This document shows, piece by piece, positions 13,670 to 60,617 of a DNA stretch of 64,000 nt (position 1 is its first letter; every line of letters starts with the position of its first letter). The stretch lies in the NCBI GenBank assembly GCA_001798075.1, contig MGRG01000012.1:1-64000 (forward strand). The letters run 5' to 3'. The DNA comes from Deltaproteobacteria bacterium RIFCSPHIGHO2_01_FULL_43_49 (GTDB taxonomy: Bacteria; UBA10199; SPLOWO2-01-44-7). A program made the translations under genes and the position numbers. The notes beneath the pieces are model-generated. The model worked only from the letters and a program-made list of their open reading frames with translations, searched no databases and had not been told where the DNA came from.

Positions 13670-14848
13670 CTATTTGATCAATGTCAGAGATGTGGGTAAA
13701 GCCCCAACCCCCAAAGGCCCTGCCATCATAGCTCCCGTGTTTGGGTCCATAATGAATGTCCCCGTGTTGACTGGGTTTCTTTCCGGAACCCAAAGCAGGC
13801 CATTTTGATCAACCAAAAGATCAGACAGAAAACCACCAGGGCTGGTGTATAAGTTTGTGTTTCCTACCCCTGGTGTTGTGGGGTTGAATGAAGCAATTCT
13901 GGATGCATTGACAGTGATAACCCCTAAATTATCAGAGACAAATCTCAATGTGGATACATAACCAGAAAAATTGGCATCATCAATCAAAATTCCCAGAGAC
14001 AATTTCGTCGCGACATCAATGACTTCAATTCCTCCATAGGGTGTTGAAGTATCGTTATTGAAACTGGAATCAAAAACACCTGTGTCGGTTATCAACAAAC
14101 GGTTGGATGTTGTATGATAGGCAATGTCTGTTGGGTTGCGACCGACAAGTGGGATCGATTGAAGAATCGTATCTGTTTTGGTATCGACGACCACAACTTT
14201 TCCGTTGGTCGTTGCTTCAAAATTTTTGGAAAGGTCTTGGCAGAGCACATAGAGCGTATCCCCCGCAAGTGCCATTTTGGCAGCTCTGGCTAAGCGATCT
14301 CCATCATCAGTTGTGTAGGATTTGAGGTCGAGGCTGGCTAATTTTTTGCCGCTTAATGGCTCTACAACCCACAAATCATCTTTGTTATCTGGATCGAGTT
14401 GGGAATCAAGTCTGGTGATGAACGCTTTACCATTGGCTACCACCAAATCTTGTGGGTTTGCAGACTCTCCTGACGAGTAGTTTCCCAAAATTGCAAAAGA
14501 TTGGGGATCAATTACTTGAATGGTACTGACATTACCCCGATTGATGACAAAAAGTTTTCCATCATAACTTTTCACCACAACATCACTCGAATCGGTGATG
14601 GCTAGTGCTTTCTGCACAGGATGAGGATTGTTGAGCCCCACCGTTGCGATACTTCCCACCGGATCGGTAAAAAACGAGGCGGCGACATAAACATTTTCTT
14701 GAGGGTTTAAACTGAGACTTCCTGCAGAGTCATCATCATCGACCGCTTTTTTGATTTGTTCGATGATGTAGCCTGGTCCACATCCAAAAAGAAAAATACT
14801 AAATCCTAAACACGAAATTCTAAACAAATTCAAAATACGAATTTTCAT
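13670..14848 (-). CDS. Beta-propeller (YVTN-like) lipoprotein
   Basis: A 392-residue lipoprotein. A lipobox ending in FLFGCGPG (about 18-25) follows a signal peptide whose core LFRISCLGF is encoded by a dispersed AT-rich repeat (see the repeat at 14797-14848). The mature part is a seven-bladed-type propeller with recurrent strands such as VVVKSYDGKLFVINRG, VVVANGKAFITR and KVVVVDTKTDTILQSIPL. The ATG at 14848 overlaps the receptor stop (ATGA), so it is coupled with the TonB-dependent receptor, as is common for surface substrate-binding lipoproteins. The ligand is unknown. Confidence 0.82.
   Translation of the reverse strand: MKIRILNLFRISCLGFSIFLFGCGPGYIIEQIKKAVDDDDSAGSLSLNPQENVYVAASFFTDPVGSIATVGLNNPHPVQKALAITDSSDVVVKSYDGKLFVINRGNVSTIQVIDPQSFAILGNYSSGESANPQDLVVANGKAFITRLDSQLDPDNKDDLWVVEPLSGKKLASLDLKSYTTDDGDRLARAAKMALAGDTLYVLCQDLSKNFEATTNGKVVVVDTKTDTILQSIPLVGRNPTDIAYHTTSNRLLITDTGVFDSSFNNDTSTPYGGIEVIDVATKLSLGILIDDANFSGYVSTLRFVSDNLGVITVNASRIASFNPTTPGVGNTNLYTSPGGFLSDLLVDQNGLLWVPERNPVNTGTFIMDPNTGAMMAGPLGVGALPTSLTLIK
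14797..14848 (-). repeat. Microrepeat family G, copy 1: encodes the lipoprotein signal peptide core
   Basis: AT-rich repeat built from the units CTAAATCCTAAAC-CACGAAATTCTAAAC-AAATTC. Read on the minus strand it encodes MKIRILNLFRISCLGFSI, i.e. the positive and hydrophobic parts of the signal peptide. A second copy gives NLFRISCLGF in the adjacent receptor. Similar repeats lie outside genes at 21504-21568 and 35146-35279. Confidence 0.75.
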
Positions 14849-16848
14849 AGCTTTAGTTCCAACTCTCCCCAATAAGATCTCCCGGGAAGCGGGAAGCCTG
14901 CAATATCGGCAATTCGGTCATTGAGCAAGTTTTTTGTGGTGAAAGAAATTCGCATCCATTTTAGCGGTTCCAGATGTGTACCAGCAGACAAAAGAGTGCG
15001 CTGAGTTACTTTGAGGAGATTTTGAGAATCCAAAAAATTGTGGCTCAAGATCTGCAATTGGAAGAAAGGCCTCAAAAACCGATATTGATATTCACCCTCT
15101 ACAGTCCATTGGTGTTTAGGCCTTCCAGGCAAGAAGTTTCCTTTGGTTGGTGACGTGTCCGACGCATCTTTGGCGGTCTGATAAACATAGTGACTACTCA
15201 TTTTAAGGTTTTTAAATATCCTGATGGATAATCCAAATTCTCCACCTAAAATCAAAGCACTGTTCAAATTTTGCGCCTTGGCGGTAAATTGAGACGTTTG
15301 CAAAAATTGAATGAGGTTATCTATTTCATGTCGGAAATAAATCATTTCTAAATTTAAATCATCGATAACCCAAAAGTTTTGCCAACGCCCATGAATCCCT
15401 AGGTCAAAGTTGATCGCCTCTTCCGGTTTTAAGTTGGGATTTCCCACCAATGTGCCACGGTCGCCAAAAAGCTCACCAAAAGTTGGTTGACGAAAACCAC
15501 GGTAGACATTGGTTTTGAGACTTAAGAATCGCCACGGTGAAATTTTAATTCCCAATTTTGCGGAAATTTGTCTGTCGGTCACGTCATTGAAACTCTGCCC
15601 GCTCAAATGATTGAGAAAAATTTGAAATCGCAACGAGGGATCCAAAATCACTTTGTCATCTAAAAAGCTGATTTCATCTTCCAGTCCGACACTAACCATA
15701 TGCCTTTGGCTCAGGGGCCCTTGTTGCGGAGTTACCAGTCTGTCAAAGGGCCAGAAAAATTCGCCTCGGTGAGCAAGAAAGCCGCTAAAAATATGGTTTT
15801 GCAAAGGATGGCTCAAATGAAACTCGGGGCCGAGCCGGAAGGTTTCATCTTTATTATCCTGGGTACCGACGCCGATTTCTCCCAGGGGGTCTTCAAATTC
15901 GCTTTTAAGATAATCGAAAAAAAGGTGGGCTTGCCAATTTTTTCTGTTTAGCTTGGCGTGAATAAAATTTCTTAGAGTACCCAATCTTGCTCGGTTGGAA
16001 GTAGAACTCCCCAAACCAGGAATTCCCTCTTCTTTGATAAAGAAGTTTTCATATACTTTCCAATTAAGGGCCTCTTTTTTTTCTTCCCCGAAAGTGGCCG
16101 TGACATCATAAGATCCAAAATCGTTGTTGCCTCTATTAATGATGCGATCGTCAGAACGATTAGCACGTGTTCCCCTGTCATCTAGAAAAGGAAAATCGCC
16201 ACGGCTTCTGAAATGATGAAACGAGGCATTGTAATAAAAATCGCCAAACGCCTGGGCGCGTTGGATGTGACCCTGATAGGTATAAAAAGAGCCAAGAGAA
16301 TTTCGAATGGTATTTTTTGTTTCTGCAGGTTTTCCCTTGGTATGAATAGTGATGACCCCGCCAGGCGTTGAGTCAACAATTTTTCCAGGCGAACCCCCAC
16401 GGTAAATTTCAATCCGCTCAATATGATCCAACGGTAAAAAGGAAAGGTCGGTTAGTCCTCCTTGTGCCGTATTGAGTAAAACGCCATCAAGATAAATCAA
16501 AACTTGATCTGTTGTGGAGCCGCGAATCGAAATGGCCGCAAAATCATCCAGACCTCCATAGCGCTTGATCTGAACTCCCGCAGCTCTTTCCAAAAGTTGC
16601 GGTAGTGTTTGTGCCAGGCCAGGGACTTTTTTGGGGACAATCACTTGAGCCTGAGCTGCTGTATCCAGCTGGACTTCCTCTTGGTCTTGAACGGTAATGT
16701 CGATCTGCGCCTTCTCGTTCGCCCAAACATTACAGGAAATTATAAATCCTAAGCACGAAATTCTAAACAAATTCGAAATTCCAAACACCAAATTCCAAAC
16801 TGTTTTTATTTTTTTTCGGATTTCGGATTTCGGATTTCGGATTTTCAT
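14845..16848 (-). CDS. TonB-dependent outer membrane receptor, BtuB-like
   Basis: A 667-residue receptor. After a signal peptide ending near VWANEKAQ there is a TonB box-like segment, then the plug domain (TLPQLLERAAGVQIKRYGGL, IRGSTTDQVLIYLDGVLLN, IERIEIYRGGSPG, about 78-175) and a 22-strand barrel ending in aromatic SYWGELELKL. The plug wording is close to BtuB-type vitamin B12 receptors, but the family is broad. The first 35 residues are encoded by AT-rich microrepeats (see 16740-16848), so the signal peptide was apparently assembled from repeats. It is coupled to the lipoprotein gene by ATGA overlap. Confidence 0.88.
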   Translation of the reverse strand: MKIRNPKSEIRKKIKTVWNLVFGISNLFRISCLGFIISCNVWANEKAQIDITVQDQEEVQLDTAAQAQVIVPKKVPGLAQTLPQLLERAAGVQIKRYGGLDDFAAISIRGSTTDQVLIYLDGVLLNTAQGGLTDLSFLPLDHIERIEIYRGGSPGKIVDSTPGGVITIHTKGKPAETKNTIRNSLGSFYTYQGHIQRAQAFGDFYYNASFHHFRSRGDFPFLDDRGTRANRSDDRIINRGNNDFGSYDVTATFGEEKKEALNWKVYENFFIKEEGIPGLGSSTSNRARLGTLRNFIHAKLNRKNWQAHLFFDYLKSEFEDPLGEIGVGTQDNKDETFRLGPEFHLSHPLQNHIFSGFLAHRGEFFWPFDRLVTPQQGPLSQRHMVSVGLEDEISFLDDKVILDPSLRFQIFLNHLSGQSFNDVTDRQISAKLGIKISPWRFLSLKTNVYRGFRQPTFGELFGDRGTLVGNPNLKPEEAINFDLGIHGRWQNFWVIDDLNLEMIYFRHEIDNLIQFLQTSQFTAKAQNLNSALILGGEFGLSIRIFKNLKMSSHYVYQTAKDASDTSPTKGNFLPGRPKHQWTVEGEYQYRFLRPFFQLQILSHNFLDSQNLLKVTQRTLLSAGTHLEPLKWMRISFTTKNLLNDRIADIAGFPLPGRSYWGELELKL
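16740..16848 (-). repeat. Microrepeat family G, copy 2: encodes the receptor N-terminus
   Basis: The first part (16740-16800) carries CTAAGCACGAAATTCTAAAC and AAATTC units like copy 1. The second part (about 16816-16844) is four tandem copies of the heptamer TTTCGGA. On the minus strand the heptamers read MKIRNPKSEIRKK and the rest reads NLVFGISNLFRISCLGF. The heptamer is stop-free on both strands, and the whole stretch forms the signal region. Confidence 0.75.
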
Positions 16849-19560: not shown

Positions 19561-19748
19561 GGGCAGGACTGGGGGTGTGAAAAACATTGTGCGGGAACGA
19601 GGGCGTATCGAGTCAAACAAAATAATATTCGTTTCTGCAGATAGAGCTGACGGAGGTAAGATACTATCTGCATCTTTTGAAACGAAATTATTTTTTTGAC
19701 GAGATAGCCCGAAGTGGAGCACCGTTTTGAACACCCCCACTCCTGCCC
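19561..19748. repeat. Inverted-repeat element family D, copy 1
   Basis: A 188-bp element with terminal arms GGGCAGGACTGGGGGTGT and ACACCCCCACTCCTGCCC (17 of 18 pair). Its interior contains a long inverted repeat around AATATTCGTTTCTGCAGATAG, so it could fold into a large hairpin. A nearly identical interior occurs in opposite orientation at 60188-60378, differing at a handful of positions. It carries no gene. It occupies most of the gene-free stretch 19290-19795 together with element E. Confidence 0.8.
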
Positions 19749-21503: not shown

Positions 21504-21568
21504 AGAAATTCTAAATTCTAATATCTAAATTCTAAACAAATTCCAAATTCTAAATTCCCTAAATTCGT
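21504..21568. repeat. Microrepeat family G, copy 3, upstream of the AmgK-like gene
   Basis: AT-rich tract of TCTAAATTC and CTAAACAAATTCC units immediately upstream of the start codon at 21503. It replaces the position of a ribosome binding site. It is related to the repeats at 14797-14848, 16740-16848 and 35146-35279. Confidence 0.7.
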
Positions 21569-21574
21569 TCCTGT

Positions 21575-21670
21575 GTGGGGGCGGAGGGGTGGCCCGGAGT
21601 GTTTGTCGTGGGGTTTAGTTAGGGGCCCCCACGAAAACACGCAGGGACAGGACCCCGAAGCCCCCAACCC
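21575..21670 (-). repeat. Hairpin element family A, copy 1 (intergenic)
   Basis: Core GTGTTTTCGTGGGGGCCCCT with TAACTAAACCCCACGACAAAC in the minus orientation, with imperfect GC-rich arms (GTGGGGGCGGAGGGG and its partial complement). The same core occurs at six further places. This copy has the CTAACTAAACC form with TAA in the frame used by coding copies. Confidence 0.75.
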
Positions 21671-21673
21671 AAT

Positions 21674-22060
21674 TTAAGGATTCACAGTAAATTGTATATC
21701 GGCATTGCTCGTCAATTCAAAAACAGTTACAAAAATTCCTGATGCCCCTGTTGAGGCACCGCTTGGCACATTGAAAGTTAACGATTCCACCTCCCCATTG
21801 GTTGGTGGGTCTACCAGGGCATAAGTTTGAGCAGTTGTGGCAGTCCCCCCGACTGTAATCACATTCACAGCAGCCTCTGAAGAAAATCCAAAGCCAAAGA
21901 TGGTTATTGTTTCTCCGGTGCTGCCACTTGTTGGGCTCACTCTTTTGATAACAGGACTTGATTGGATCGCGACGGAAGGAGGCGAAGAGAGGGGATCGGC
22001 TGTCGACCCACATCCGCCAAGAATAAGAAGGGCTAAAATGAGACCAAAATATCTTTGCAT
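21674..22060 (-). CDS. IPT/TIG-domain lipoprotein
   Basis: A 128-residue lipoprotein. The signal and lipobox are ILALLILGGCGST (about 8-20, Cys at about 17). After a short proline-rich spacer comes one IPT/TIG fold: PVIKRVSPTSGSTGETITIFG (about 36-56), then FSSEAAVNVITVGGTAT and the final strand. IPT/TIG domains are immunoglobulin-like and occur on cell surface proteins. It is monocistronic, convergent with nothing and divergent from lexA. Function is unknown. Confidence 0.78.
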   Translation of the reverse strand: MQRYFGLILALLILGGCGSTADPLSSPPSVAIQSSPVIKRVSPTSGSTGETITIFGFGFSSEAAVNVITVGGTATTAQTYALVDPPTNGEVESLTFNVPSGASTGASGIFVTVFELTSNADIQFTVNP

Positions 22061-32264: not shown

Positions 32265-33779
32265 ATGGCTAATGAACTAGTTTTAAATGTCACTTTGGGC
32301 GAGACTCGTGTTGCAAGACTTGAAAATGGAGTTGTTTGCGAACTCTATATTGAGTGCACCAAAGAACAGGGGGTTGTCGGCAATGTTTATAAAGGAAAAG
32401 TTGTGCGTGTTTTGCCAGGTATGCAAGCCGCTTTTATCGACATCGGCCTGGAGCGAACCGCCTTTTTGCATGCCTCGGATGTTGTTCAAGAGCTGACCCG
32501 TTTTGATGCGGATATGGAAAATGATGACGAGGATGATGAAGAAGAAAAAAGACCACGACGTTTTGTTCCCAGACACCACCGAAAAATTGAAGATCTTTTA
32601 AAAGAGGGCCGTGAAATTTTGGTTCAAGTTGAGAAAGAGCCAATTGGCACCAAAGGGGCCAGACTTACTTCTCATATCTCTCTACCTGGCCGTTATTTAG
32701 TCTACATGCCAACTGTCAATCATCTCGGCATTTCCAGGCGCTTAGGGGATGACAAAGAAAGAAGAAGGTTGCGATCTCTCATCGAGCGCTCCCGTCCTCG
32801 AGGAAGCGGCTTCATTATTCGTACTGCCTGCGTTGGTGTGGCTGATGAAGAAATCACGGCCGATATGAATTATCTTATCCGCACGTGGGAGGATATTGCA
32901 ACCAAGGCTACAGACAGCAAAGCCCCAACGGCTGTTCATTCTGAGTTAGATGTTTTATTGCGGGTGGTGCGTGATCTTTTCACATCCGATATTGATCGCT
33001 TGGTCATCGACAACAAAGAAAGTTTCGATCGCGTTCAAAAATTTGTGAATACTTTTATGCCGGCCCTCAAAAGTTCCATTGAACTTTACGAAGGCTCCGA
33101 GCCGATCTTCGATCATTTTGGAATTGAAATAGAAATCACGAGAGCATTAGGTCAAAAAGTTTGGCTCAAGAGTGGTGGCTATATTATTCTTGAACAAACA
33201 GAGGCCTTGACCGCAATTGACGTCAATACAGGACGTTTTGTGGGCAGGCGCAATTTGGAAGATACAATCCTCAAAACCAATTTAGAGGCCGTCAAAGAAA
33301 TTGTCTATCAACTTCGGTTAAGAAGTATCGGCGGCATCATCATTTTGGATTTCATCGATATGGAGCGGCATGCCAATCGTCAAAAAGTTTTCAACGCCCT
33401 CAAAGAAGCCCTCAAGAGTGACCGGGCCAGAACCACCATTACCAAAATTTCCGATCTCGGTTTGGTAGAGATGACCAGAAAAAGAACGAGAGAAGATTTG
33501 CGCCGCCAACTCACCGATCCTTGCACTTATTGCGAAGGGAAGGGTTATCTCAAAAGTTCTACGACTGTTTGTTATGAAATTTTCAGAGAAATTCAAAGAG
33601 AGGCTTCAGAAATGAAGGGAAAACAAATTGTTGTCTATGTCCATCCTCAGGTTGCCAACATGCTCTATGACGAAGAGCGCAAATGGTTAGAGCTTTTTGA
33701 AGAGCACTACAAAAAACGAATTTCTGTCAAAACAGTCGCGGAATATCACCTGGAACAGTTTGATCTAGCCGAAACTTAA
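32265..33779 (+). CDS. rng: Ribonuclease G/E family endoribonuclease
   Basis: A 504-residue RNase G type enzyme for rRNA and mRNA processing. An S1 domain (about 35-120) is interrupted by an acidic insert (ENDDEDDEEEKRPRRF). The catalytic domain has AIDVNTGRFVG and IIILDFIDM with the metal-binding Asp residues (about 320-366), and a zinc-link Cys pair in CTYCEGKG (about 421-428). No long C-terminal scaffold as in RNase E. It precedes the rplU-rpmA-obgE block, an order common in proteobacteria. Confidence 0.94.
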   Translation: MANELVLNVTLGETRVARLENGVVCELYIECTKEQGVVGNVYKGKVVRVLPGMQAAFIDIGLERTAFLHASDVVQELTRFDADMENDDEDDEEEKRPRRFVPRHHRKIEDLLKEGREILVQVEKEPIGTKGARLTSHISLPGRYLVYMPTVNHLGISRRLGDDKERRRLRSLIERSRPRGSGFIIRTACVGVADEEITADMNYLIRTWEDIATKATDSKAPTAVHSELDVLLRVVRDLFTSDIDRLVIDNKESFDRVQKFVNTFMPALKSSIELYEGSEPIFDHFGIEIEITRALGQKVWLKSGGYIILEQTEALTAIDVNTGRFVGRRNLEDTILKTNLEAVKEIVYQLRLRSIGGIIILDFIDMERHANRQKVFNALKEALKSDRARTTITKISDLGLVEMTRKRTREDLRRQLTDPCTYCEGKGYLKSSTTVCYEIFREIQREASEMKGKQIVVYVHPQVANMLYDEERKWLELFEEHYKKRISVKTVAEYHLEQFDLAET

Positions 33780-33797: not shown

Positions 33798-33892
33798 GTG
33801 AAAAAGCAGCGGATCCTGTCCCTCCGTGTTTTTGTGGGGGCCCCTAACTAAACCCCACAACAAACACTCCGGGCCACCCACTACTTTTTCAC
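33798..33892 (+). repeat. Hairpin element family A, copy 2 (intergenic)
   Basis: Core in plus orientation (CCTGTCCCTCCGTG ... AACACTCCGGGCCAC), bounded by GTGAAAAAGCAG and CTACTTTTTCAC, arms unique to this place with a single mismatch. It has the CTAACTAAACC variant. It follows rng and is followed within a few bases by a family B element. Confidence 0.82.
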
Positions 33893-33903
33893 TAATCTAT
33901 AAA

Positions 33904-33999
33904 ATGGTTGAAAATAACGGGTGGTCGGCGATGCTGTCAGCCCGATCTGTAGGGAGGGCGTGCAGCTGAGCCGACCCGGAGCCCGTTATTTTCAACCAT
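33904..33999. repeat. Hairpin element family B, copy 1
   Basis: The arms ATGGTTGAAAATAACGGG (33904-33921) and CCCGTTATTTTCAACCAT (33982-33999) are an 18-bp perfect inverted repeat. The interior carries GTCAGCCCGATCTGT and GGGAGGGCGTGCA, also found in the copy at 60486-60617. It ends exactly at the stop codon of the minus-strand gene beginning at 34268. Confidence 0.82.
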
Positions 34000-34268: not shown

Positions 34269-34570
34269 CCGCTTCTCCTCTCCTACTATAGTTATCCTTT
34301 TCGTGCTATCGCGCTTCAAGGACTTCCTCGGCCACCCAGCCTTTGGCGGGGTTCCCGGCCTCGGTCGTCGGCTACACTATAGTTATCGGCAACCTTATAG
34401 AAAAGTTGCTCGTAGGTGGCAGGGCCTGTCCCTCCGTGTTTTTGTGGGGGCCCCTAACAAAACCCCACGGCAAACACTCCGGGCCACCCGCCACCTACAT
34501 AAAGACGCTCTATTGCAACAACTGATTCTGTTTGACTTAAAGGAGCGAATCCGCTATCCAGGCCGCCCTT
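34269..34570. other. Spacer before rplU with a direct repeat flanking a GC-rich segment
   Basis: CTACTATAGTTATC (34283-34296) recurs as CTACACTATAGTTATC (34372-34387). Between them lies a GC-rich 75-bp segment (GACTTCCTCGGCCACCCAGC...). The direct repeat could be a target duplication around a small insert. A family A hairpin follows at 34411-34499, and then a short leader to rplU. No independent gene is evident; a plus-strand open frame passes through because the A core is stop-free here. Confidence 0.5.
34411..34499 (+). repeat. Hairpin element family A, copy 3 (leader of rplU)
   Basis: Core in plus orientation with CTAACAAAACC (no stop in the coding frame). Arms CGTAGGTGGCAGGG and CCACCCGCCACCTACA are specific to this site. 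It lies 72 bp before the rplU start codon, so it is likely within the mRNA leader of a ribosomal protein operon, where autoregulation by hairpins is common. Confidence 0.8.
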
Positions 34571-34891: not shown

Positions 34892-35158
34892 ATGGCACAC
34901 AAAAAAGCGGGTGGTTCCACAAAAAATGGCAGAGATAGTAAAGGACAGTGCCGTGGTGTGAAACGCTATGGGGGTCAATTTGTCAAGGCGGGCAATATTT
35001 TAGTTCGCCAATGTGGCACCAAGATTCATCCTGGATTGAATGTGGGTGTTGGAAAAGATTGGACCATTTTTGCCAAAATCGATGGTTTGGTTACCTTTGA
35101 GCGTTTCGGCAAAGACAAAAAGAAGGTTAGCATCCTCCCACAAAATCCTAAATCCTAA
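34892..35158 (+). CDS. rpmA: 50S ribosomal protein L27
   Basis: An 88-residue ribosomal protein. The N-terminal [20 protein letters not shown] reaches the peptidyl transferase centre, and [17 protein letters not shown] is the conserved barrel part. There is no N-terminal extension to be cleaved as in Firmicutes. It sits between rplU and obgE. The last codons run directly into an AT-rich repeat (family G copy 4). Confidence 0.97.
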
Positions 35159-35279
35159 TTTCTAAATCCTAAACAAATCCAAAATTCGAATGACCCAAAT
35201 TCTAAACAAAATTGTTTGGAACATTAGGATTTTGAACATTTGAATTTGTTTAGAATTTAGTATTTAGTGCTTAGAGTTT
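35146..35279. repeat. Microrepeat family G, copy 4 (inverted pair) before obgE
   Basis: Two AT-rich G-type tracts face each other: the left is built from CTAAATCCTAAACAAATCC and the right is its inverse (GAATTTGTTTAGAATTTAG). They could fold into a long hairpin around a short centre. The right end reaches the obgE start codon, and no Shine-Dalgarno remains between them. Confidence 0.75.
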
Positions 35280-38245: not shown

Positions 38246-38982
38246 CAACCTTATTACAAAAGGAGCGGGTCCTGCCCCTCCGTGTTTTTGTGGGGGCCCC
38301 TAACAAAACCCCACAACAAACACTGTGGGTCACCCACTCCTTTTGTAATCTTGTTCAATCTCTGACAAGCCTGATTTTTCCAGATCGTTGTGTTGGGTGT
38401 GATATATGGGGTGCGCTTCTCTGTGCTTCTTGTTATGACAGGCTACATTTTTTAAAAGTCCCCGCTCATTTGCCTCATCTATCCAAGCAATACTTTACAG
38501 ATGCCTATTCTGTCTTAGCTTATGAGAGCTTGGCGCATGATTGGATTCATCAATACAAATATCATCGCAAACTTTATCTTGCTCCATTGTTTATTTCTCT
38601 TTTATCAAAAGCCAACCTCTCTTGGGAGAACTATGACAGCATTGTTCCTGTCCCTCTTCATTGGACGCGTCAGGTAAGAAGGGGTTTCAATCCAACTTAT
38701 TTGCTGACAAACGAATTAGGGAAAAAACTTGGAAAGCCAATTTTACCCTATTTGAAAAAGGTGCGTCGGACCAAACCGCAGACAAAACTTTCTCAAGAAG
38801 AGCGTCTCAAAAACGTGAAGGGAACGTTTGCATGCAATCGCCACCAAGATATAAAAGATTTATCTCTACTTTTAGTCGACGATGTCTTAACCACCGGCGC
38901 CACCGTCAATGAATGCGCTAAAGTGCTCATGAAAGCCGGCGCCAAACGCGTCGATGTCTTAACCCTCGCCAGGCCTTTATGA
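38242..38982 (+). CDS. ComF-family phosphoribosyltransferase-like protein
   Basis: A 246-residue protein of the ComF/GntX family linked to DNA uptake. A zinc-finger region has CVGCDIWGALLCASC (about 49-63) and the PRPP-like loop LLLVDDVLTTGATVNE is near the C-terminus. The N-terminus is unusual: MTTLLQKE is followed by LPLRVFVGAPNKTPQQTL, which is the translated family A hairpin, and then the family-like start FCNLVQSLTSLIFPDRC. The ATG overlaps the gpmI stop (ATGA). The element thus lies in frame inside the gene without breaking it. Confidence 0.88.
   Translation: MTTLLQKERVLPLRVFVGAPNKTPQQTLWVTHSFCNLVQSLTSLIFPDRCVGCDIWGALLCASCYDRLHFLKVPAHLPHLSKQYFTDAYSVLAYESLAHDWIHQYKYHRKLYLAPLFISLLSKANLSWENYDSIVPVPLHWTRQVRRGFNPTYLLTNELGKKLGKPILPYLKKVRRTKPQTKLSQEERLKNVKGTFACNRHQDIKDLSLLLVDDVLTTGATVNECAKVLMKAGAKRVDVLTLARPL
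38253..38349 (+). repeat. Hairpin element family A, copy 4 (in frame in comF)
   Basis: Core in plus orientation with the stop-free CTAACAAAACC variant. The arms ATTACAAAAGGAG (38253-38265) and CTCCTTTTGTAAT (38337-38349) are a 13-bp perfect inverted repeat found only here. The core is translated as LPLRVFVGAPNKTPQQTL in ComF. Confidence 0.88.
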
Positions 38983-40179: not shown

Positions 40180-40965
40180 ATGCGCGATTACACACAAGCC
40201 GCTATAGAGATTGCCAAGGAAGCGGGGGCGTTGCAGATGGACCGTTTACACAAGCAAAAAACCATTTCCTACAAGGACCAAAACAAGTTCAATATTGTCA
40301 CTGAAGTCGACAAGGCTTGCGAGAAGCTAATCTGCGATTATCTCAAAGATAAATTTCCGTCCCACGACATCCTGGCCGAAGAAGGAAGTGGTTTTGATAC
40401 AAAGTCCGACTGGCTCTGGATCATTGATCCCATCGATGGAACCGTTAACTATGCCCATGGTTACCCATTATTTTCCGTATCTATTGGTTTATTGCACAAA
40501 GGGAAAGTTGTTGTGGGAGTTGTTTATGAACCCAACCTAGATGAGCTCTTTGTTGGTGAAAGAGGGGGTGGGGCTGTTTTGAATGACAAACCGATTCGCG
40601 TTTCCAAAAACAAAGCACTGGATGGTTCGATGATCGCTACTGGCTTTGCCTATAATGTTAACGAAACACGTCTCAACAACATTGATCACTTTAATAATTT
40701 CATTTTAAAATGTCATGCGGTGCGCCGTGATGGGGTTGCCTCAACCGATTTGTGCTATATTGCCTGTGGACGTTTTGACGGTTTTTGGGAACTCTTTTTA
40801 AAACCGTGGGATATTGCAGCAGCCAGTGTGATTGTTGAAGAGGCCGGCGGAAAATTGTCAATGTTCGACGGTCGCCCACTCGATATTTTTGGTAATGAAA
40901 TTGTGGCGAATAATGGATTAATTCATGAAGAGATGTTACAAATTTTAAAATCGTCTGACGACTGA
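40180..40965 (+). CDS. suhB: Inositol monophosphatase family protein (SuhB-like)
   Basis: A 261-residue Mg-dependent phosphatase. The metal site is formed by EEG (about 67-69) and WIIDPIDGTVNYAHGYPLFS (about 84-103), and the C-terminal motif WDIAAASVIVEEAGG (about 210-224) is complete. Members hydrolyse inositol-1-phosphate or similar sugars and SuhB also helps rRNA folding. The last codon and stop lie within the left arm of a family A hairpin, so the 3' end was likely altered when that element arrived. Confidence 0.93.
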   Translation: MRDYTQAAIEIAKEAGALQMDRLHKQKTISYKDQNKFNIVTEVDKACEKLICDYLKDKFPSHDILAEEGSGFDTKSDWLWIIDPIDGTVNYAHGYPLFSVSIGLLHKGKVVVGVVYEPNLDELFVGERGGGAVLNDKPIRVSKNKALDGSMIATGFAYNVNETRLNNIDHFNNFILKCHAVRRDGVASTDLCYIACGRFDGFWELFLKPWDIAAASVIVEEAGGKLSMFDGRPLDIFGNEIVANNGLIHEEMLQILKSSDD

Positions 40966-41047
40966 CGGGTCCTGTCCCTCCGTGTTTTCGTGGGGGCCCC
41001 TAACTAAACCCCACGACAAACACTCCGGGCCACCCGTCAGTCGTCAG
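40955..41047 (+). repeat. Hairpin element family A, copy 5 (end of suhB)
   Basis: The arms CTGACGACTGACGGG (40955-40969) and CCCGTCAGTCGTCAG (41033-41047) are a perfect 15-bp inverted repeat. The suhB stop codon (40963-40965) lies in the left arm. The core carries the TAACTAAACC variant. The outer 12 bp occur nowhere else in the window. Confidence 0.9.
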
Positions 41048-41061
41048 GTCATTCGTAATTT

Positions 41062-41727
41062 ATGATAGACCCTAACAAAAAAGAGGAGCTACCGATTAAT
41101 CCAACACAGGTTTGTTATCGGGCCTTTGAGTTGATGAAGGCGAAACAATATGATGATGCTGAAAAGTTACTGGCCAATAATCTAACTCATACTGAAGACA
41201 AAACAGCCAACGCCCTTTATCACTCTGCCTTGGGTGTCTTGTACAAAATGCAAGGTGAGTTCAAAACCGCTTGGCGCCATTATACCCGGGCGGAAAAACT
41301 TCTGCCCCAAGACCCCGCTTTGAAAATTATCATGGCAAGGCTTTTGATTGATCAATTTGCAGAATATACTCAGGCTATCAAAAGGGCAAAAAAAGTTTTA
41401 GAGATTTTGCCTAACAATCCGGTTTTTTGTCATCAGGCCTATATTACGATGGGGCTGGCCTATTGTAAAAAGGGCGATAAACAAAAGGCAATTGGGATGC
41501 TAGAAAAATCCCAAGAAAAAGATTTTGAAGGGTTTATCACAGCGAAGAATATTGATTTTCAATTGGTGGAAATGCTGCTTCGTAAAAGTTGGGGTGTGGA
41601 TAGTTGTTATCGATTTTTAAATAAAGCCCTGGCCTTTGCCAAAAGCCGCAAAGAAGAACCTTTCATTGACGCCTTCCAAAAAATGTTGAATGCGTTTGAA
41701 AAAGAATATCCCCAGAATTCTATATAG
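41062..41727 (+). CDS. Tetratricopeptide repeat protein
   Basis: A 221-residue protein with three or four helix pairs of TPR type: YRAFELMKAKQYDDAEKLL, YHSALGVLYKMQGEFKTAW, IMARLLIDQFAEYTQAIKRA and GLAYCKKGDKQKAIGML. No signal peptide, so it is probably cytoplasmic, acting in protein contacts. It lies between two family A hairpins. Its last codons and stop form the left arm of the second (41716-41732), leaving the product ending in PQNSI. Confidence 0.75.
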   Translation: MIDPNKKEELPINPTQVCYRAFELMKAKQYDDAEKLLANNLTHTEDKTANALYHSALGVLYKMQGEFKTAWRHYTRAEKLLPQDPALKIIMARLLIDQFAEYTQAIKRAKKVLEILPNNPVFCHQAYITMGLAYCKKGDKQKAIGMLEKSQEKDFEGFITAKNIDFQLVEMLLRKSWGVDSCYRFLNKALAFAKSRKEEPFIDAFQKMLNAFEKEYPQNSI

Positions 41728-41813
41728 GTGGGTGGCCCGGAGTGTTTGTCGTGGGGTTTAGTTAGGGGCCCCCACGAAAACACGGAGGGACTTAGACCCA
41801 CCTATATAGAATT
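41716..41813 (-). repeat. Hairpin element family A, copy 6 (before tatD)
   Basis: The arms AATTCTATATAGGTGGG (41716-41732) and CCCACCTATATAGAATT (41797-41813) are a perfect 17-bp inverted repeat. The core is in the minus orientation with the TAACTAAACC variant. The right arm ends one base before the tatD start codon; the left arm contains the stop of the TPR gene. Confidence 0.9.
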
Positions 41814-48605: not shown

Positions 48606-48702
48606 ATAGCCGGTACGCGGTGGCTTGGTATGTGGTAGCGCAGTACGTGGTAGCAAAGTGCTAGGTGACATCTACCATATAGTGCCTGGCACTCTGTGGT
48701 AG
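48606..48702. repeat. Palindrome family C, copy 3 with a 65-bp repeat
   Basis: CCGGTACGCGGTGGCTTGGT through AGTGCTAGGTG repeats at 49769-49830 with few changes. It ends in CTACCATATAGTGCCTGGCACTCTGTGGTAG parts (arms CTACCA and TGGTAG around GTGCCTGGCAC, 48672-48702). It fills the spacer between the TA promoter and the gene at 48812. Confidence 0.7.
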
Positions 48703-48811: not shown

Positions 48812-49768
48812 ATGGCTGCCTCACGGATATTTTTTGGTCTATTGTGTGGAAACCCCCCGCAACATTCGGATGCTCAGGATATGCCCACTCCGAAAGCATC
48901 TCCTCCTGTTTTGACGCCGCAGGATTTAGAGGCGTTTGCAAGAAAGTATGCCCCCATTTTACTGACGGAAGGAAAGCGTTACAACATCCCGACACGTGCC
49001 GATGCCGATGGAGACTGGGATGCCAGCAATAATGCCTCAAATTATGACAAGTTTTTGGCCGGTGCGAGAGAGTTTATCCAGAAACCCTATGAAAAAGATG
49101 CCCCTTATTTTCCAACTCTTTATTATGAAGCCATAGTAACCTCCACGCATCTTTTTATTACCTATTATCTTTTCTTTCCGCACGACGCGGGCGACTACCA
49201 CACTTTTGAGCCGGGAGATCCAAGAGGAGGACATAACAATGATGCAACCAGTTTGATGGTTGTGGTTCCAAGAAGTGAGAAACCCTTTCGGGTGATTACA
49301 CAGGATCATGGACGTATTACTTCTATGTCACAAACGGAAATACGTTTGCATGGAGATCGACCCGTGTTGGAAATCAGCAGTGGCAATCATGCGTTGAGAG
49401 GGCTCAAAAATGGAGAGAAAATTCGTGAAGAAGAGCCGGAAGCACGTCGCCAGATCTTTTTGTATGCCCATGGGGAAAAGGGACAAGAATATAAATTGTT
49501 AAGAGTTCACGAGACACTCTGGCTGCAAAGAAAAAATGGAGATCTTTTTGGGGGTTTTGATGGTGAAACCGGTGTTCAATTCAAGGGGGACCATGGTCCT
49601 TGGGCCCCCTGGGCCAGGCCTTTTACCGACTCCGTGCCAGGCATGATCGGTTTTGCTTTGGGATGGCGTTTAGCGGAAAGTTTTTTTGATCCAGCAAATG
49701 TCTTGTGCTTATCGGGAGAAGAGTGCTCCAAAGGCTATCTTAAAAATCCCTATACTCAAGACAGATGA
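48812..49768 (+). CDS. Hypothetical protein, possible Vps62/NPP1-like beta domain
   Basis: A 318-residue protein. No strong signal peptide, although residues 1-22 are partly hydrophobic. The part FARKYAPILLTEGKRYNIPT (about 44-63), then HLFITYYLFFPHDAGD (about 112-127) and GGHNNDATSLMVVVPRS (about 139-155) is reminiscent of Vps62- or NPP1-like proteins, which have a His-rich GHEGD-type motif; the match is weak. A good RBS (AAGGAGGGGG) lies upstream. Its stop codon lies in the arm of element C copy 4. No close neighbour explains the role. Confidence 0.5.
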   Translation: MAASRIFFGLLCGNPPQHSDAQDMPTPKASPPVLTPQDLEAFARKYAPILLTEGKRYNIPTRADADGDWDASNNASNYDKFLAGAREFIQKPYEKDAPYFPTLYYEAIVTSTHLFITYYLFFPHDAGDYHTFEPGDPRGGHNNDATSLMVVVPRSEKPFRVITQDHGRITSMSQTEIRLHGDRPVLEISSGNHALRGLKNGEKIREEEPEARRQIFLYAHGEKGQEYKLLRVHETLWLQRKNGDLFGGFDGETGVQFKGDHGPWAPWARPFTDSVPGMIGFALGWRLAESFFDPANVLCLSGEECSKGYLKNPYTQDR

Positions 49769-49858
49769 CCGGTACGCAGTAGCTTGGTATGTGGTAGCGC
49801 ACAGTACATGGTAGCAAAGTGCTAGGTGCAAATCTAGTGCCAGGCACCTGGTGGTCAT
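49765..49858. repeat. Palindrome family C, copy 4 between convergent genes
   Basis: Arms ATGACC (49765-49770) and GGTCAT (49853-49858) enclose the 65-bp repeat also seen at 48606 and the core GTGCCAGGCAC. The stop codons of both converging genes (49766-49768 plus, 49855-49857 minus) lie in the arms. Confidence 0.7.
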
Positions 49859-52958: not shown

Positions 52959-54116
52959 TTAGTTCTCCTTTGTTGTCGCCTTTTCCGGCGTTTTATATTT
53001 GATTGTTTTTTTGACTTTTATCGATTCGTCTTTTTTCTTTTCCAATTGGTTCACCGATTTTACATCTTTTAACTTCTTCTGGGCTTTGATATCAGCATAT
53101 TGTTCATCATACAAGTCAAACCATGGGTAACCGTATAATTCATATTCTTTTTTGGTGATGGGAGTGTCGGGTGGTTTTTTGCCCGTGATTTTTTGAAACT
53201 GTTTGCTATTCACGATGAAAATATTAATAGATGCGAATTTATTCTTATCCCACGTATCAAAACCATAAGGGTCTGGATAGATTTTTTGTCTCATTTTTCC
53301 ACCGGCACCAAGTCCCATCCCTCCTTCCCCCGTAGTGCTGTAAAGAACCGATGGCATCTCTTGCCCTAATCCAAAAGTTTTGGCCGCTCTTCTATTTTCC
53401 TCCGCCGGTTTTTTGAATTTTCCTTTGACCGGATTGTAAACAGCGATTTGTAATCCCCCCTCTTTTTCTTCGCCGGTGACTTGTCCCTCAACAGTAACGC
53501 CTTTGCCAAGGGGCATGGCTACAAATTGTCTGATAAAGTCTTTGCCAGATTTGATCCCGTCAATCCATGGCTGAGGAGTGGGGGCTACAAGATAATCTTG
53601 ATCTTTTAATTTTTTAAGTTCTGGGTCCCAAGTCTCGCCGGTTAAGGCATTTACTTTACCAACGCCAATTTTTAAAGCCCTGGGACGCCATTCTTCGCCA
53701 CCAAAAGAAATCCACATCGCCTCTTTTTGATGCATCGGAATAAAGACCCCACCTTTAGCTACCCATTCTTTGGGAAGTTTAGAGGCATAATCTTCAACAC
53801 GATAGATCGGGAATTTTCCAAGCCCAGGTGGCAAAGGATATTGTTTTCCATCGTCTGGAATCCGCAGTGTGCGCTGAAAGGTCATTTTGAATTCATCAAA
53901 AAAAAGCGCATCGTCACTAACCGTGATTTTTACGGTCCCTTCACTGATTGGTTTTGCAAAAGATAAGGATGTTAAGCTTAGAGTTGTTATTAAAATAGCC
54001 GTAAAAAAATGGTGGGTGGCCCGGAGTGTTTGCTGTGGGGTTTTGTTAGGGGTCCCCACAGAAACACGGAGGGACAGGCCCTGCCATTTTTTTGCAACCA
54101 TTCTATTTTTTTTCAT
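52959..54116 (-). CDS. Secreted protein of unknown function with element A in its signal region
   Basis: A 385-residue exported protein. The N-terminus is MKKNRMVAKKWQG, then LSLRVSVGTPNKTPQQTLRA (the translated family A core), then HHFFTAILITTLSLTSLSFA, a normal hydrophobic core and cleavage site. Without the insert a usual signal peptide results. The mature part is polar with strands such as GTVKITVSDDALFFDEFKMT and a tail rich in Lys/Glu. No family is recognised. The ATG overlaps the stop of the dehydrogenase gene (ATGA). Confidence 0.6.
   Translation of the reverse strand: MKKNRMVAKKWQGLSLRVSVGTPNKTPQQTLRATHHFFTAILITTLSLTSLSFAKPISEGTVKITVSDDALFFDEFKMTFQRTLRIPDDGKQYPLPPGLGKFPIYRVEDYASKLPKEWVAKGGVFIPMHQKEAMWISFGGEEWRPRALKIGVGKVNALTGETWDPELKKLKDQDYLVAPTPQPWIDGIKSGKDFIRQFVAMPLGKGVTVEGQVTGEEKEGGLQIAVYNPVKGKFKKPAEENRRAAKTFGLGQEMPSVLYSTTGEGGMGLGAGGKMRQKIYPDPYGFDTWDKNKFASINIFIVNSKQFQKITGKKPPDTPITKKEYELYGYPWFDLYDEQYADIKAQKKLKDVKSVNQLEKKKDESIKVKKTIKYKTPEKATTKEN
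54003..54093 (-). repeat. Hairpin element family A, copy 7 (in a signal peptide)
   Basis: Core in minus orientation with the stop-free CTAACAAAACC variant. Arms AAAAAAATGG (54003-54012) and CCATTTTTTT (54084-54093) extend with one mismatch. In the coding frame it reads LSLRVSVGTPNKTPQQTLRA, the same frame as in ComF. Confidence 0.88.
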
Positions 54117-55681
54117 AAAAGTTTCTCCGAAATCGTTTGCCAGTGAATAAAGCGTAACAAGTGAGACCAGTGGCCTGCTTTGTCGTCTGTCCCCGAACCA
54201 TACCAGCCGCCGAATGGTTCCGCACCAACAAAAGCACCGGTACATTTGCGATTCAAGTACATATTTCCAGGACTAAATTCATAAGCCCTTTTTTTGAGTT
54301 CTGGTTTTGTTGTAAACAATGCCCCTGTTAGTGCGTAGGGGGTCGCATTGGCAATGCGCAGCATGTCATCAAAGTCTTTTGCTTTATAAATTCCAAAGAC
54401 CGGCCCAAAAATTTCCATGGCCGCCTCTTCTTGAGAAGGTTTCAAGCCTTCATGAATGGTAGGTTGAATTCCCCAGCCGGGAAAATTTTCAGCCGGTTTA
54501 CCTCCCAACAACAATTTAGCTCCGGCTTTTCGCACCTGTTCACATTGGGAAAGAATGCCCTGCATCGCCCTTTCATCCACTACTCCTCCCAAAACAGCGT
54601 CGGGCTCGGTGACATTTTTGGGCTGAATTTTGGACAAGCGATCCAGAACAGACTTTTTAACATCATCATATATCTCTTCTTTGATGATAAGACGAGAGAG
54701 TGCCGAGCATTTTTGTCCCTGAAAGCCCAGGGCGCTTGTTTGAACGGCATCCACCAAAGCATTCAAATCGCTATAGTCGTGCACGGCAATGAAATCACAG
54801 CCCCCCATCTCGGCCACCACTCTTTTGATCCATTTTTGGCTCGTTTCAGCCGCCATTTTGTTGATTTGCAAACCGGCTTGGCGACTTCCTGTGAAGGTAA
54901 TCAATGCGATATCGGGATGTTGAGCCAAAAGTTGCCCTAATTTATGATGCTGATGGCTATCCAAAACCAGCTGAATGGGGACCCCCGTTTCCTGGATCAG
55001 TTTGGTCATAAAAATTCCGGTTGCAGCACCGCGGGGAGAGGGTTTCACCACCAAGACATTTCCCATCACGGTAGGTGCCGCCCACATCCCTGTAAAAATC
55101 GCGAAAGGAAAATTGAATGGAGGAAGACTCAATCCCACACCAATTGGTTTGGGATGCATTTTGGTTGCATGTCGCTCCAAAGAGGTGATGGCCAAAAACT
55201 CCGGGTCATTAATCAGCTCGCAAGAGCTAGCATAATATTCTAAAAAGTCGACCCCTTCGGCCCAGTCGGCATAAGCCTCAACCGCCGTTTTGCCCACCTC
55301 CAGCATCAATAGACCGATAATCGTCCATTGTTGTTTTTGGGTTTTCTCCCTGACTTTTCTTACGAGGTCAGCTCTTTCTTTAAAAGATTTTGCACCCCAA
55401 CTGGGTTGAACTTTTAAGGCATAATTCAAAGCCTTCAATGCCTGTCCCTCTGAGGCCACGGCAAAAGGACCATAGGTTTCTTGTTTGTTATTGGGGTTAA
55501 CGTTTGTAAATTGACCGGCTTCTCCCTCTACCCACCTTTCGCCAACCAGAACTTGATGCGGTTTTTTGAGGATTTTTCTCGCCTCTTCGAGACCGGAAAA
55601 GAGGGCTTTTTTAGTCTCTGGTTTCTCCCAGGGATTGATAATGGGGACGTTTCTAAACTCTTTGAATTCTTGAAGATTCAT
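54113..55681 (-). CDS. L-glutamate gamma-semialdehyde (P5C) dehydrogenase
   Basis: A 522-residue aldehyde dehydrogenase that oxidises glutamate semialdehyde (from proline) to glutamate with NAD. The catalytic Glu is in VVAEMGGCDFIAVHDYSDL and the Cys in FQGQKCSALSRLIIKE; the end NRKCTGAFVGAEPFGGWYGSGTDDKAGH (in parts) fits the RocA/PutA type. The ATG at 55681 is preferred; the upstream frame to 55783 is only the translated K palindrome. No proline dehydrogenase gene is next to it. It is coupled with the secreted protein downstream by ATGA. Confidence 0.92.
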   Translation of the reverse strand: MNLQEFKEFRNVPIINPWEKPETKKALFSGLEEARKILKKPHQVLVGERWVEGEAGQFTNVNPNNKQETYGPFAVASEGQALKALNYALKVQPSWGAKSFKERADLVRKVREKTQKQQWTIIGLLMLEVGKTAVEAYADWAEGVDFLEYYASSCELINDPEFLAITSLERHATKMHPKPIGVGLSLPPFNFPFAIFTGMWAAPTVMGNVLVVKPSPRGAATGIFMTKLIQETGVPIQLVLDSHQHHKLGQLLAQHPDIALITFTGSRQAGLQINKMAAETSQKWIKRVVAEMGGCDFIAVHDYSDLNALVDAVQTSALGFQGQKCSALSRLIIKEEIYDDVKKSVLDRLSKIQPKNVTEPDAVLGGVVDERAMQGILSQCEQVRKAGAKLLLGGKPAENFPGWGIQPTIHEGLKPSQEEAAMEIFGPVFGIYKAKDFDDMLRIANATPYALTGALFTTKPELKKRAYEFSPGNMYLNRKCTGAFVGAEPFGGWYGSGTDDKAGHWSHLLRFIHWQTISEKLL

Positions 55682-60187: not shown

Positions 60188-60378
60188 GGGGAGGAGTGGG
60201 GGGGTGTTCAAAACCGTGCTCCACTTCGGGCTATCTCGTCAAAAAAATAATTTCGTTTTGATGCAGATAGTATCTTACCTGCCGTCAGCTCTATCTGCAG
60301 AAACGAATATTATTTTTATTGACTCAATACGCCCTCGTTCCCGCACAAATGTTTTTCACACCCCTCCCACTCCTCCCC
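60188..60378. repeat. Inverted-repeat element family D, copy 2
   Basis: Arms GGGGAGGAGTGGGGGGGTGT and ACACCCCTCCCACTCCTCCCC (near-complementary). Its interior is the inverse of the copy at 19561-19748 and differs at a handful of sites by eye. No ORF of significance. Confidence 0.82.
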
Positions 60379-60485: not shown

Positions 60486-60617
60486 AAGTTGAAAATGACG
60501 CACAAATGGTGGAGTGGTGGGTGTCCCGAGGGGGTGTCAGCCCGATCTGTCGGGAGGGCGTGCAACCCCGTGGGGACAGGATCCGCCACTCCACATAAAA
60601 CCTGTCATTTTCAACAA
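60486..60617. repeat. Hairpin element family B, copy 2
   Basis: Outer arms GTTGAAAATGAC (60488-60499) and GTCATTTTCAAC (60604-60615), inner arms around GTGGAGTGG/CCACTCCAC, and the core GTCAGCCCGATCTGT with GGGAGGGCGTGCA shared with copy 1 (33904-33999). Confidence 0.8.

Follow-up and report, generated by a model that had tools for sequence, protein, structure and literature searches.

The element at 54003-54093, on the minus strand of the window (the whole 64,000-nt stretch of DNA that we analysed), is probably a copy of a non-autonomous selfish "protein-coding palindrome", which would be tolerated inside genes where its peptide is harmless. About 103 copies of this ~91-nt palindromic repeat were found in the 2.2-Mb source genome (G000), where a reversed control pattern gave none, and the repeat core occurs 7 times in the window, with 0 expected from shuffling. 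Three of the 192 other genomes searched, 5 of which belong to the same family, contained a single match, each with 2 mismatches; as far as the genomes compared show, expansion of the repeat appears confined to the source lineage. At gathering thresholds, Rfam returned one tRNA in the window and no match at the element.

The copy is 91 nt long, including its complementary arms (AAAAAAATGG...CCATTTTTTT), and corresponds to nt 24-114 of the gene at 52959-54116, so that the coordinates given in the preliminary description were exact. Read on the minus strand, it runs AAAAAAATGG-CAGGGCC...CCACCCA-CCATTTTTTT, and the outer 5' arm (54084-54093) pairs in the predicted fold with the outer 3' arm (54003-54012). 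The arms, which covary across copies, flank a conserved 69-nt core (54014-54082), composed of a ring and an inner module A, that aligns without gaps to 49 other copies, and module A is itself a 42-nt hairpin, GTG...CAC (54026-54067, alignment columns 36-77), with TCC repeats on both sides. Elsewhere in the window, a copy at 38258-38347 (plus strand) is translated within comF after MTTLL, a plus-strand copy with A-tract arms (33802-33890) lies downstream of a 504-aa ORF ending at 33779, and another at 34412-34498 (plus) carries the arms GTAGGTGGC/GCCACCTAC. The 5' arm of the copy at 40955-41044 (plus) overlaps the end of a 261-aa inositol-monophosphatase-like gene, and additional minus-strand copies are located at 41724-41800 and, with GGGGGCTTCG-type arms, at 21584-21677. 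The window also holds other repeats. Long repeats at 19580-19738 and 60200-60355 (74 and 59 nt, 92-98% complementary) lie inverted to each other and are apparently another dispersed repeat; an AT-rich family, AAATTCTAAATCCTAA..., has four direct copies (14794-14849, 16737-16792, 21506-21561 and 35143-35198), one of them read into the N-terminus of ORF 14845-16848; and 15-nt tandem repeats of the GGTACGTGGTAGC type flank ORF 48812-49768, at 48610-48667 and 49769-49828.

The host gene (52959-54116, minus strand) encodes a conserved secreted protein of 385 aa without assigned function, for which a Pfam search found no family. Its ATG (54114-54116) and the stop codon that ends the upstream aldehyde dehydrogenase gene overlap as ATGA, and a GGAG ribosome-binding site, read directly at 54125-54128 and conserved in orthologues, precedes the ATG. 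Orthologues in three sister genera, G004, G002 and G003, are 71, 67 and 67% identical, and have the same start overlap and upstream gene end, making the overlap common to four genera. Differences from the G004 orthologue at codon positions 1, 2 and 3 number 83, 41 and 171, and since changes pile up at third positions, the gene appears to be under purifying selection. Because no ATG, GTG or TTG occurs between the element and the hydrophobic core, residues 9-38 (KKWQGLSLRVSVGTPNKTPQQTLRATHHFF, slightly more than the preliminary description listed) should be encoded by the element, with KKW supplied by the 5' arm and HFF in part by the 3' arm. That description had named a start codon downstream of the element as the observation that would count against its reading, and none was found before the core. 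By far the likeliest interpretation is that this is a real gene, translated through the element. The idea that the gene has decayed and leaves the element untranslated is hardly credible, given the open frame over 385 codons, the start overlap conserved in four genera, and the third-position excess of changes.

The hydrophobic core and cleavage region of the signal peptide (FFTAILITTLSLTSLSFA, 53955-54008, minus strand) were located by hydropathy, with a putative cleavage site placed by the -3/-1 rule. Although the first two F residues come from the 3' arm, the insert covers neither the SFA/KP cleavage site nor most of the core. The proposal that the element is read in frame, after the basic N-terminus and ahead of the hydrophobic core of a secreted protein's signal peptide, is supported. 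The G004 orthologue, without the insert, starts MKKIFWIVSSLTLLAMTAFA, and a genome-wide search among named relatives gave just three homologues of the host protein, all of them distant and with no similar insert. We infer an insertion here from orthologues that are ~70% identical, rather than from an empty allele in a near relative.

To identify other copies read through in genes, 101 copies were collected with their flanks, and inspection of open frames crossing the core placed 19 copies inside real genes. Fourteen of the 19, which between them use both orientations and several frames, are at the junction of the basic n-region and the hydrophobic core in signal peptides of the secretory or lipoprotein type (52959-54116, L003, L005, L016, L028, L035, L036, L037, L039, L040, L043, L050, L052 and L074), and a hydrophobic stretch comes after each of them, together with a plausible cleavage or lipobox motif; several of these host proteins resemble lipoproteins. 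Coding and signal-peptide assignments were made by inspection and hydropathy, and the maximum 12-residue hydropathy just past the core was 2.1-3.3 in the 14 signal-peptide copies, compared with at most 1.7 in the other five coding copies. The latter are in comF, a PabB/TrpE-like protein, a PrmA-like methyltransferase, a YgfZ-like protein and the C-terminus of an M23 peptidase, names that come from reading the sequences, with comF alone checked against Pfam. A rough binomial calculation puts the chance of 14 in 19 at ~2e-19, a figure meaningful only as an order of magnitude, since it assumes our own generous estimate that signal peptides make up 2.4% of coding sequence. The n-region extension had previously been called unusual, but at this frequency it is not exceptional in the source genome. 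These results suggest that signal peptides tolerate insertions such as this repeat and receive them repeatedly.

If the element is a selfish palindrome, insertion would not be aimed at proteins; most copies lie between genes, and those inside genes would survive only where the encoded peptide does no harm. In the frames that are read, the element encodes 25-30 residues that are basic and non-hydrophobic, including KK and FF contributed by the arms, and the insert would lengthen only the n-region, with the core and cleavage site staying in place. Since such peptides are basic and non-hydrophobic, and spare the core and cleavage site, the n-region should be a tolerant site, for which the arm-encoded Lys-Lys before and Phe-Phe after the insert would be well suited. 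Sec export and cleavage should continue, with the extra residues leaving as part of the signal peptide, and because the insert should be discarded in this way, the hot spot can be accounted for without invoking any function. An effect of the insert on export, which the preliminary description had raised, is possible but unsupported.

It is very improbable that the insert has been co-opted as a functional long n-region that alters targeting or slows export. The basic character of the insert, whose net charge in the signal-peptide copies is +1 to +8, and its presence in 14 exported proteins would fit a co-opted n-region, but forward frame 0 of the element encodes LSLRVFVGAPNKTPQQTLRATH, while reverse frame 2 encodes VARSVCCGVLLGAPTKTRRDRT, both basic yet unrelated peptides, and both are in use, together with three hybrids that arose through indels. 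One additional coding copy uses another reverse frame, and the orthologues have short n-regions or other repeats instead. The coding copies also show selection for an open frame. At the loop base, 18 of 19 coding copies have A, compared with 24 of 81 others (Fisher p = 1.6e-7), because T at this position creates a stop, TAA or TAG, in the frames that are read. Similarly, six coding copies have TGG at an arm position where non-coding copies commonly have TAG, a stop in the KK phase. The observation that the element is read in the same frame in the host gene and in comF is correct, but it carries little weight, since the A loop variant leaves two of three forward frames open; the shared frame is explained by stop codons and by the KK/FF phase of the arms, rather than by a function of the peptide.

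At the DNA level, the repeat is a nested hairpin, in which copy-specific self-complementary arms surround a ring that holds an inner module (A, B or none). The copy at 54003-54093 has a structure z of -6.2 and a predicted fold of -50.5 kcal/mol, with T7 in the 3' arm. In a 50-copy alignment (A1), gap-free over 109 columns and consisting almost entirely of copies with A-tract arms, the pairs of this hairpin were formed in 92.8% of cells, versus 44-52% with slid partners, double changes were found in 229 cells versus 76.5 after shuffling, and 15 of the 18 outer pairs showed covariation.

This strong compensatory change, together with the fold and T7 noted above, raises the question of whether the element is kept for a function of the nucleic acid, as a bidirectional terminator-like or attenuator hairpin. 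A-tract copies resemble terminators that act in both directions, with A-tract and T-tract arms around a GC-rich hairpin, and many non-coding copies are close behind stop codons. In the gene at 52959-54116, such a hairpin would cause early termination unless the translating ribosome covered the element. However, coding copies, where a terminator would be harmful, pair no worse than the others (93% versus 79%, falling to 62% when coding arms are exchanged). There are also 39 copies without A-tract arms, and orthologues do without the element. We therefore consider maintenance as a terminator unlikely, and continue to favor a selfish palindrome.

The arms, mostly 9-17 bp long and complementary within each copy, are only 40% identical between copies, while the cores are 93% identical, and core and arm identity are uncorrelated, which rules out simple inheritance of the arms, as terminal repeats, together with the core. 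For the arms, as distinct from the rest of the structure, it is quite conceivable, though not the account we favor, that they were made at insertion by fold-back copying of the target flank, or that they are kept complementary by template switching between them. Their variability around a conserved core would fit either process, as would the scarcity of element-free A-tract palindromes of this size in 609 kb of sequence. However, the arm word TGAAAAAGTRG has only 2 sites outside elements in the same 609 kb, unlike a random target, which disfavors random target sequence as the source of arms in the A-tract group; similar arms surround different modules in comF of two genera, and rings are found with A, with B, or with nothing. 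Class II arms (TTGGAGCTTCG) were also considered as an ordinary target palindrome, but no empty GGAGCTTCG...CGCTCCAA site was found at a gap of up to 25. Approximately 16-20 copies with GGAGCTTCG arms are embedded in a larger composite repeat, which has GCGAAAAACG/CGTTTTTCGC as its outer arms and, downstream, a GAACGAGGGCGTATTGAGTCAA block (among them L009, L012, L015, L021, L031, L040, L042, L045, L046, L049, L052, L065, L067, L071 and L073). A perfect element-free palindrome similar to the arm consensus, GGGGCTGGTGAAAAAGTCGCGCGACTTTTTCACCAGCCCC, is present at L158 (G000:C14:66037-66062).

Module A occupies 84 rings and module B (GTCAGCCCGATCTNTCGGGAGGGCGTGCA, in the other orientation) occupies six, including the ring GGATCCTGTCCC...CGGGACACCC at 60506-60594 (minus strand), the same ring as in the module-A copies; one more module-B ring is in G004. 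A single ring, GGGTCCTGTCCCTCCGGGCCACCC at L070, contains no module. The full ring exceeds the empty one by 45 nt, equal to the 42-nt module plus TCC, and, judged against this single empty ring, TCC or CTCC lies on both sides of the inner module, a possible target-site duplication of the module rather than of the whole element. In comF, G000 has module A and G004 has a different hairpin, with module B, at the start of the gene; the arms are AAAAGGAGCGGG and AAAAGGAACGGG. The simplest account, which we hold less surely, is that hairpins already in place receive inner modules in their loops, resulting in a nested structure with copy-specific arms, and the empty ring at L070 could be ancestral or a deletion between TCC repeats. 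Module B, also present at 33912-33998, has copy-specific arms of up to 18 bp, and its copies number 20 in G000, 10 in G004 and 10 in G002.

More tentatively, spread of the element might be hairpin-directed, either by entry of modules into existing hairpin loops or by copying of the target flank as an inverted duplicate. In that case signal peptides, in which AAA-rich Lys codons precede TTT-rich Phe codons, would offer natural quasi-palindromic targets and not merely tolerant sites, and every copy would be wrapped in its own self-complementary arms. As for a mobilising enzyme, G000 has six Y1 (REP-type) transposase genes (L163, L167, L171, L174, L177 and L181), none with a copy of the element within 1.5 kb, which argues against them as a linked source.

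Orthologues of the host genes were retrieved from sister genera with concatenated queries, and the element was absent from those read for the tested host genes. In G003, the orthologue of the gene at 52959-54116 reads MKKYARHCEEPEATKQSLLKMTGDCFVLLATLGVLAMTTYVITVGTAEAKS, with an unrelated repeat, RHCEEPEATKQSLLKMTGDCFVLLATLGVLAMT, in its signal peptide; matches to this repeat number 33 in G003, 41 in G002 and 44 in G005. No paper on the ATKQS repeat was found in the literature searched. Three other orthologous signal peptides in G004 and G005 contain what appear, in part from internal repetition, to be repeats of the GTCCATGG type (WTMDYGLWT...GPWSMV, GPWSMVHG), and VTPAKAGVQ in an orthologous signal peptide of G005, and CHPCEGRDPLDSR...RGNDS in the PabB linker of G004, appear to be repeats as well. 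In this family, repeats of unrelated origin thus seem to accumulate time and again in signal peptides and loose linkers. Unrelated repeats were noted in signal peptides or N-termini of orthologues at L081 and L141 (G003), L142, L132, L152, L088 and L095 (G004), and L135 and L153 (G005), and one such repeat (CGTCATTGCGAGG...) begins with the CGTC tag known from REPs. At PabB, PrmA and YgfZ, the orthologues are too divergent for a native arm to be told.

With these findings, frequent protein-coding palindromes are seen in one more, unrelated lineage, and a clear rule emerges for where they survive, ahead of the signal-peptide hydrophobic core. The independent repeat families found in the same signal peptides of sister genera amount to natural experiments in insertion tolerance, and a 93%-conserved core within freely varying complementary arms makes mobility directly testable by strain comparison. 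They also provide a warning for annotation, as long n-regions in such genomes may be functionless repeat sequence.

The closest parallel is with the Rickettsia palindromic elements (RPE; Ogata et al., 2000, 2002), described (PMC2229807, PMC10969869) as palindromes of ~100-150 nt, present in many copies, found in frame in unrelated conserved genes, and apparently selfish. By that description, rather than by RPE sequence, the present repeat is alike in being a palindromic hairpin, slightly shorter at 91 nt, with 103 copies, in frame inside unrelated conserved genes (19 in all, with tested orthologues lacking it). It differs in its lineage, in that only about a fifth of copies are coding, in the concentration of coding copies in signal peptides, and in having arms that differ in every copy yet remain complementary. 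Yersinia YPO1552 is a reported precedent for a repeat contributing to a signal peptide (Delihas, 2007; PMC2759123), but the enterobacterial RU-2/YPAL and RU-1/ERIC cases were reported for single loci, with a hydrophobic repeat frame (PMC2759123), whereas here the n-region is lengthened in 14 genes of one genome. REPs tagged with GTAG/CGTC are 20-40 bp long, form small hairpins near gene ends and sometimes within genes, and in some genomes certain families are nested inside larger palindromes (PMC3733652). The present repeat resembles them in its location and in the nesting of modules in hairpins, but the missing GTAG/CGTC tag (columns 16-19 of alignment A1 are variable, and their changes are paired) and the missing linked RAYT, the six Y1_Tnp genes having no copy within 1.5 kb, rule out REP identity. 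In Nematomorpha mitochondria, inverted repeats within coding sequence also retain complementary arms, and fold-back copying or template switching has been discussed, but those palindromes are not dispersed and their arms encode conserved protein (PMC6649704). SPRITE, RUP and BOX of pneumococcus are likewise small dispersed repeats, one of them terminator-like (PMC3049150), a likeness of description alone. The conserved terminal inverted repeats of MITEs have no counterpart here, the outer arms being inverted repeats with 40% identity between copies, while the anatomy of an intrinsic terminator, a GC-rich hairpin followed by a T-run, is present in the sequence of A-tract copies. The searchable literature, which excluded most subscription papers, including the original RPE papers, yielded no description of a signal-peptide hot spot or of copy-specific complementary arms. 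Translated palindromes are a kind already known, and what is new is this repeat family, its layered anatomy and its signal-peptide hot spot.
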